From NCBI RefSeq assembly GCF_000337515.1, contig NZ_AOIQ01000013.1, positions 36,590-93,758 of the forward strand: 57,169 nucleotides of DNA, read 5' to 3'. The stretch's first letter is position 1. Each line of letters starts with the position of its first letter. The translations under genes were made by a program, and so were the position numbers. This document shows, one piece after another, positions 9,196 through 9,767 of the stretch. This stretch comes from Halovivax asiaticus JCM 14624 (GTDB taxonomy: Archaea; Halobacteriota; Halobacteria; Halobacteriales; Natrialbaceae). The notes under the pieces are model-generated. The model was not told where the DNA came from. It worked only from the letters and a program-made list of their open reading frames with translations, and did no database searches.

Positions 9196-9250
9196 ACGGC
9201 CTGCCGTTTTCCATCTTCTGAATGGATTGATTCCACTCCCTCACCAGTAA

Positions 9251-9257
9251 CTATATT
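9251..9257 (+). promoter_or_regulatory. TATA box of the candidate structured RNA
   Basis: CTATATT preceded by a purine-rich AGTAA element. The predicted start, 26 bp downstream at about 9280, coincides with the first paired base of the three-way junction RNA described next. Confidence 0.45.
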
Positions 9258-9280
9258 ACCCATCACGTCAATCATCCGCA

Positions 9281-9409
9281 CGGAAGCGACGTCCGCACGG
9301 GCAGGAAATGCCCCGGGTGCTGGTACACCCGGGACGTGGCTTCCAAATCCCGGCTGAGGGATTTTGTCAGCCATGTTCCGAAACACACCATCGAGACAAA
9401 AAGGTCTCG
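9281..9409 (+). ncRNA. Candidate structured RNA: three-way junction plus two stem-loops
   Basis: No convincing protein is encoded here, but base pairing is dense. P1 pairs 9282-9287 with 9339-9344 (GGAAGC/GCTTCC) and continues as 9289-9294 with 9332-9337 (ACGTCC/GGACGT) around one G-G mismatch. Inside P1 are P2 (GGGCA 9299-9303 / TGCCC 9309-9313, loop GGAAA) and P3 (CGGGTG 9314-9319 / CACCCG 9326-9331, loop CTGGTA). P4 follows P1 with no gap (AAATCCC 9345-9351 / GGGATTT 9358-9364). P5 is CGAGAC 9392-9397 / GTCTCG 9404-9409. A TATA box sits 26 bp before the first base. Alternatives are a free-standing sRNA, a cis-acting leader of the gene at 9522, or the orphaned guide RNA (omega/sotRNA) of a lost IS200/IS605-type element, since such RNAs end in comparable hairpins. 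The family is not identified. Confidence 0.5.
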
Positions 9410-9521
9410 CACGCCCGTTGTCTAGGGAGTCGTATCGCTACCCGTCGCCGACCTTCGTTTTCGGGGATTGGGGGCCGGGTATCTTCGATCGGTTCGAACT
9501 GTCGGACTGCGAGGTGCTCGG

Positions 9522-9767
9522 ATGAAATCCGTCGAGCGAACGGGCGACGGGACCGGCGACAGGGCTCCTGACCGGGAGTGCTATCGGTGTGATCGGGACG
9601 TGGCCCCGGCGCGGCTGTTTCGGCTCGTCGCCGAGCCGCCGGCCGCGCTGTCGCACGAGTACCAGACTGCCGAACGGTTCTGCTGTCCGGATTGCGCCGC
9701 GGCGATAAATCTCTCCGAGTTCGCGGAACGGGTGAAGGCACGGGCGCGTCGGGGAGACCCGCAGTAG
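9522..9767 (+). CDS. Small CxxC protein, haloarchaeal
   Basis: An 81-residue hydrophilic protein with two cysteine pairs, CYRCD near residue 21 and FCCPDC near residue 56, that probably bind one zinc. Haloarchaeal genomes encode many such short zinc-finger-like proteins (DUF7576-like); their functions are mostly unknown. ATG at 9522 is preferred over an in-frame upstream codon at 9468 because it gives the polar, acidic start usual here. It lies about 110 bp downstream of the structured RNA on the same strand, so the RNA could form part of its leader. It converges with the membrane protein at 9774, six bases away. Confidence 0.65.
   Translation: MKSVERTGDGTGDRAPDRECYRCDRDVAPARLFRLVAEPPAALSHEYQTAERFCCPDCAAAINLSEFAERVKARARRGDPQ

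Follow-up and report, generated by a model that had tools for sequence, protein, structure and literature searches.

A multicopy, covarying leader RNA of haloarchaea with a predicted alternative helix at the start codon of a short ORF coupled to zinc-protein genes

Positions 9281-9409 of the window (the whole 57,169-nt stretch of Halovivax asiaticus DNA that we analyzed) hold a structured RNA that is probably a cis-acting, bistable mRNA leader, and that would gate the translation of a short ORF and of the small zinc-protein gene behind it. We read it as a new multicopy class of cis-regulatory RNA in haloarchaea, within the known kind of leader RNAs. Across haloarchaea, hundreds of relatives precede genes for small proteins, most of them zinc-binding. 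The sequence-only reading of this segment had proposed a leader role among other roles, and that part of its interpretation stands; it did not note the second, competing helix or that the genome has another 27 copies.

A covariance model that we built scores 98.5 bits on the plus strand, versus 13.6 bits on the minus strand, and all of the features described here are on the plus strand. P1 (9282-9294 with 9332-9344), with 12 base pairs and one G.G mismatch, closes a three-way junction. Its 5' arm is GGAAGCGACGTCC (9282-9294), and all P1 pairs show two-sided changes among the diverse relatives. Its 3' arm, GGACGTGGCTTCC (9332-9344), is common to P1 and to an alternative helix, anti-P1. The junction also contains P2 (9299-9313; GGGCA-loop-TGCCC, with 9299-9303 pairing to 9309-9313), which covaries, and P3 (9314-9331; CGGGTG-CTGGTA-CACCCG, with 9314-9319 pairing to 9326-9331), which is almost invariant within the family and has compensatory changes in other families. 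P4 (9345-9364; AAATCCC-GGCTGA-GGGATTT, with 9345-9351 pairing to 9358-9364) is nested within anti-P1. Its sequence is variable and all six pairs covary, yet only about 60% of the cells are paired. P5 (9392-9409; CGAGAC-AAAAAG-GTCTCG, with 9392-9397 pairing to 9404-9409) also covaries, and it lies within codons 7-13 of the short ORF, because that ORF begins at 9373. All of the pairings that had been read directly from the letters (a 12-bp closing helix with one mismatch, two internal hairpins, and hairpins of 7 and 6 bp) are present. By eye, the loop of P5 (window 9398-9403) is A-rich across families even though it is within codons (AAAAAG, AUAAAC, UUAAGA, or UUGAA), and its stem varies. An additional stem, P2b, would form a pseudoknot in some relatives; it is convincing by eye and is weakly supported by permutation (4 of 1,000 permutations reach the observed mean).

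Chance pairing of this density had been judged unlikely. The folding energy of the leader segment is indeed better than that of 200 out of 200 dinucleotide shuffles (z = -3.72), but this DNA is GC-rich, and about 11% of its 130-nt windows have a raw energy as good, so folding energy alone is weak proof. In our view, the proof of the leader's fold is its relatives, not its energy. A covariance model and a search for compensatory changes in haloarchaeal genomes, as the sequence-only reading proposed, gave strong covariation and relatives in many genera. In a plain MAFFT alignment of 44 copies (alignment A1), there were 54 two-sided compensatory cells, versus 28.1 in shuffled alignments (reached by 0 of 500). 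Among 102 model-aligned copies, there were 163 such cells versus 58.8 shuffled (0 of 500), and among 58 diverse sequences, there were 380 versus 119 shuffled (0 of 500), with two-sided change at 36 of 37 pairs. Slid versions of this last comparison gave 54-100 cells. Alignments A2-A5 were fitted to the model's structure, which flatters their pair counts; alignment A1 is independent and gives a weaker result in the same direction. Because both the slid controls and alignment A1 still show covariation, fitting to the structure is not the whole effect.

Upstream of the leader is a putative promoter with BRE and TATA elements (CCAGTAACTATATTA, 9244-9258), which is kept in the copies of the source genome and of related genomes. 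Across 117 copies, there is an A/T block at -34 to -26 relative to the first base of P1, with 98-100% A/T at -30 to -26, and the best TATA-like octamer begins at -32 or -31 in 105 of the 117. This profile bears out the earlier placement of the TATA box relative to the first paired base, and the predicted transcription start is at about 9280-9282.

The segment had been described as having no protein, which we would revise: a short ORF of 50 codons (MFRNTPSRQKGLARPLSRESYRYPSPTFVFGDWGPGIFDRFELSDCEVLG, 9373-9525) is predicted to start within it, and its stop codon overlaps the start of the zinc-protein gene (ATGA, 9522-9525). The frame set by this AUG reaches a stop within 12 nt of the start of the zinc gene in 91 of 98 loci, while the third frame does so in just 3 of 98. 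Therefore, the short ORF is very probably translated and coupled to the zinc gene. After codon 17, the changes between orthologues in the two sister genomes are spread evenly over the three codon positions (60/71/69), so it is the frame that is kept and not the peptide; with no selection detected, we rejected a functional (attenuator-type) leader peptide for this part of the ORF. In the first 17 codons, constraint on the peptide is inseparable from constraint on the RNA. The short ORF has no match in Pfam or NCBIfam. At one locus (L040, G000 C21:459264-459736), a small deletion joins the short ORF and the zinc protein into one reading frame of 133 codons, a natural fusion.

The coupled frame also bears on whether the RNA stands alone. 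In favor of a regulatory RNA of its own, located ahead of these genes by chance, are the compact fold, the putative promoter, and variable loops that could base-pair with targets. However, the short ORF begins inside the conserved RNA, its frame is coupled to the next gene in those 91 of 98 loci, the RNA continues unbroken into that ORF, and zinc genes follow nearly every copy. We consider a stand-alone sRNA, which was one of the roles first suggested, to be very unlikely.

The minimum free energy structure of 9250-9420 is not the three-way junction. Instead, the segment AGCCATGTTCCG (9369-9380) forms 12 pairs with 9330-9341, and this anti-P1 helix spans the AUG at 9373 and so covers the start codon. 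P1 and anti-P1 share one strand (the 3' arm of P1), so they are mutually exclusive. Across relatives, the segment that is complementary to the 3' arm of P1 sits directly before the AUG, and in this family, it extends through the AUG. The pre-AUG segment changes along with P1 between families. For example, the 3' arm of P1 and the segment before the AUG read GGCUUC and GAAGCC-AUG, GGUCUUC and GAAGACC-AUG, GGGUUC and GAACCC-AUG, GGUUUC and GAAACC-AUG, GGCUUUC and GAAAGCC-AUG, or GCUUCCGUG and CACGGAAGC-AUG. Across families, complementarity averages 16.4 for the 48 different 3' arms of P1, versus 12.5 if the partners are permuted (the maximum of 1,000 permutations was 13.8), 11.5 if the letters are shuffled, and 10.9 for the 12 nt after the AUG. 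Within the Natrialbaceae (n = 102), the mean is 18.1, versus 11.8 for shuffled letters and 17.4 for permuted partners. The complementary stretch before the AUG is only 4-6 bp long at some loci. The resemblance between the 5' arm of P1 and the pre-AUG arm could have another cause, such as protein binding.

The two states have mean energies of -56.0 and -53.8 kcal/mol and are within 5 kcal/mol of each other for 83 of 116 copies, in calculations that leave out the possible pseudoknot and molar salt. Such near-equal energies could mean a static mixture, in which case the leader might be constitutive: it would protect the mRNA or set a fixed level of translation, and anti-P1 would have no switching role. 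Across families, however, the pre-AUG segment covaries with the 3' arm of P1, which would be difficult to account for if no functional helix formed there, and we think that a constitutive leader is improbable. A translational switch at the start codon is the natural reading of a strand that P1 and anti-P1 share and that only one of them can use.

The gene that would be controlled (9522-9767) encodes a small C4 zinc-ribbon protein of 81 amino acids (CYRC...CCPDC) whose four cysteines are invariant in 11 relatives. Between orthologues in the two sister genomes, the changes in this gene are biased towards the third codon position (97/75/242), and the AF2 model has a small zinc-ribbon-like core and then a helix (pLDDT 78). 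In the source genome, the leader is directly upstream of 22 of the 22 genes of this zinc-ribbon family (strong matches). Thus the suggestion of a leader for the CxxC gene at 9522 was right in substance, given these 22 genes and an anti-P1 helix that can mask the AUG, although it overlooked the short ORF.

Across the Natrialbaceae copies, the next genes encode C(P)XCG or CYRC...CCxxC zinc ribbons; HalOD1-like proteins (named by eye) take their place in some genomes of Halostagnicola and its relatives, and some Halopiger copies have nothing recognizable downstream. Beyond this family, the leader is often followed by a gene for a SWIM zinc finger or another cysteine-rich protein. Here 28 of 58 loci match a strict motif downstream, versus 1 of 223 background ORFs (a background that includes non-genes), and the loci that do not fit include one with a PadR-like gene. 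We also tried the SWIM gene as an obligatory partner of the leader and rejected it: the leader is present at just 2 of 12 SWIM homologues that were picked by protein alone. Given the leader-less SWIM homologues and the other exceptions, zinc is a theme and not a rule, and a zinc ligand is no more than a candidate.

Several variants of these loci were also seen. At six loci from Halostagnicola and others (L103, L106, L107, L119, L137, and L166), a sub-type of the leader whose short ORF reads MIGxLLRGLKHPVRQTNRS precedes a small protein that is like the HalOD1 output domain and not a zinc protein. At four Halopiger loci (L063, L087, L108, and L132) and at L158, the short ORF begins with MIAYPLPRHKRL and no recognizable small gene comes directly after it. 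Three plasmids of Haladaptatus (NZ_CP085340, NZ_CP085339, and NZ_CP085302) each have an expansion of 22 to 25 places that are similar to one SWIM zinc-finger protein.

The association with zinc proteins raises the question of autoregulation, in which the zinc-ribbon product, or an RNA-binding protein that is shared among the loci, would hold one state of the leader by binding at the junction or at P5, in the manner of ribosomal-protein leaders. Every zinc-family gene in the source genome has the leader, zinc fingers can bind RNA, and P5, whose loop stays A-rich, looks like a binding site for a protein. Also, the AF2 model and the A6 profile of the zinc protein weakly recall eS26, below any threshold; eS26 is a ribosomal protein at the mRNA exit channel. 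It was the top hit in a sequence search (E = 0.15) and dominates a weak list from Foldseek (E = 0.3 and worse). These leading matches are insignificant, and neither the profile comparison (hhalign probability 0.3) nor VIA (Z of about 3) upholds a kinship with eS26, so the likeness is only a lead. Furthermore, SWIM, HalOD1-like, and other unrelated products also follow the leader. We view autoregulation as somewhat unlikely. Because the leader precedes genes with unrelated products, a single ligand that is specific to one product does not fit either.

We searched for copies with 9230-9440 as the query against the source genome and its relatives, and found many copies in the source genome and in many genera of Natrialbaceae. 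The DNA pattern of the P2-P3 core occurs in at least 104 stretches in named genomes. Among the matches listed, nearly all were from Natrialbaceae (Natrinema, Natrialba, Halopiger, Halostagnicola, Natrarchaeobius, Natronorubrum, and others), and about nine chance hits were bacterial. Covariance model R1 counts 28 copies for the source genome; a close sister has 24, and a further species of the genus has 34. The copies follow a common layout: the TATA box, P1-P2-P3, a variable P4, the AUG of a short ORF that contains P5, and a small C4 zinc-ribbon gene whose start overlaps or abuts the stop of that ORF. R1 also picked up lower-scoring relatives across many further haloarchaeal families, where the plan is kept and the P1 sequences are, by eye, quite different. 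A second model (R2) matched 227 of 293 genomes, which represent 74 of the 87 genera sampled from the order. When R2 was run on 197 genomes sampled across the phylum, its 25 matches were all within the order, and the roughly 164 genomes from elsewhere had no match; R1 also had no match beyond the order. In Rfam (release 15), the window had no match at the gathering score and nothing usable at E ≤ 10, and 18 loci from diverse families gave only tRNAs.

With 24-34 copies per genome in one genus, and at least 10 copies on one 219-kb replicon in another family, the RNA might be a dispersed MITE-like repeat or a remnant of an omega RNA related to IS200/IS605. However, about 20 of the 28 copies in the source genome keep their flanks in the sister genome, and selection acts on the pairs, the frame, and the zinc protein. 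The neighbors are zinc-protein genes with a promoter of their own, and we saw no tnpB among the ORFs that we read behind the leaders of this family and of distant loci, no Rfam match, and no copy in viral contigs by exact DNA pattern. We rejected the MITE reading because of the synteny, which refutes it in the main, and we consider any mobile origin, including the orphan omega or sotRNA that had been suggested, to be extremely unlikely. As read from the flanks that are kept in the sister genome, the leader family is old and mostly vertically inherited.

The 219-kb contig mentioned above, from a Haladaptataceae-type genome (L250, L262, and L275-L281; G171 contig C7), is probably a plasmid. The short ORFs that we read on it are of the type ...EEKRIAS..., and its density of leaders is far above that of chromosomes. 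At another locus (L130, Natrinema pallidum contig_44), CTGTCTCTTATACACA is located beside an N and a repeated piece of an ORF; it looks like a residue of a sequencing adaptor in the public assembly.

We propose that the bistable leader works as follows. RNA polymerase would initiate at about 9281, and the nascent RNA would first fold into the P1-P2-P3 junction, which would leave the AUG at 9373 accessible. Alternatively, the 3' arm of P1 would pair just before and across the AUG (anti-P1, with P4 inside), which would hide the start codon. The signal that favors one state might be a ligand or an ion, or else a protein, perhaps the zinc-ribbon product itself. If the AUG is open, then ribosomes would translate the short ORF, stop where it overlaps the zinc-ribbon gene (ATGA), and start again on that gene, so that one switch would control both.

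At the level of sequence, this RNA has what would be expected of a riboswitch, namely a conserved, structured, aptamer-like domain in the 5' leader and a mutually exclusive helix at the initiation region. It is tentatively possible that these leaders are a native class of haloarchaeal riboswitches, in which a three-way junction that senses a ligand or an ion, found in most haloarchaea and reaching about 30 copies in a genome, would control a regulon of small zinc proteins by masking start codons. In that case, the signals to consider first would be zinc and the state of the translation machinery. More broadly, a covarying, bistable class of leader in 74 of the 87 sampled genera, with as many as 34 copies in one genome, would alter the view of leaders in haloarchaea; many small zinc proteins of unknown role would gain a common mode of control; and archaeal genetics would be provided with a native start-codon switch.

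In Haloferax, 72% of mRNAs are leaderless, and structured leaders have been judged untypical of haloarchaea (PMC4983044). We did not find an earlier description of this leader RNA in the open-access literature, which most subscription journals and preprints are outside of, so one may exist. Other small zinc proteins of the C4 type, comparable to the downstream product here, are known from haloarchaea, as the C(P)XCG zinc-finger micro-proteins HVO_0758 and HVO_2753 (PMC10716476), but the mRNA of HVO_0758 is leaderless, and we found no description of a conserved leader for such genes in the open-access literature. Coupling of genes through termination and reinitiation is known from Haloferax (reviewed in PMC12548453). 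Systems with leader peptides or uORFs also have a short ORF ahead of the regulated gene, with overlapping start and stop, but here there is no detectable selection on the peptide after codon 17, and it is the frame and the RNA structure that are kept.

Among regulatory leaders, those of ribosomal proteins have been predicted in archaea, including one for S15 in Halobacteria (PMC7247131). They are similar in being structured cis-regulatory leaders, perhaps bound by protein, but the genes downstream of our leader are not ribosomal operons, and there are up to 34 copies in a genome. In 2021, the fluoride (crcB) riboswitch of Thermococcus was described as the only natural archaeal riboswitch to have been determined experimentally (PMC8241225). 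It is also a natural archaeal leader that is thought to act on translation, but its genes and lineage are different, and our leader has no match to crcB. Synthetic riboswitches that mask the AUG function in Haloferax (PMC8241225), which is a precedent for this mode of control in haloarchaea. The leader also resembles the translational riboswitches of bacteria (the P1/anti-P1 platforms in Rfam), in that the closing helix of a junction shares a strand with the helix that would mask initiation, several types of genes are downstream, and the regulon is multicopy. It differs from them in that the start codon would be masked instead of the Shine-Dalgarno sequence, no Rfam class matches it, and the first ORF is a coupling ORF.
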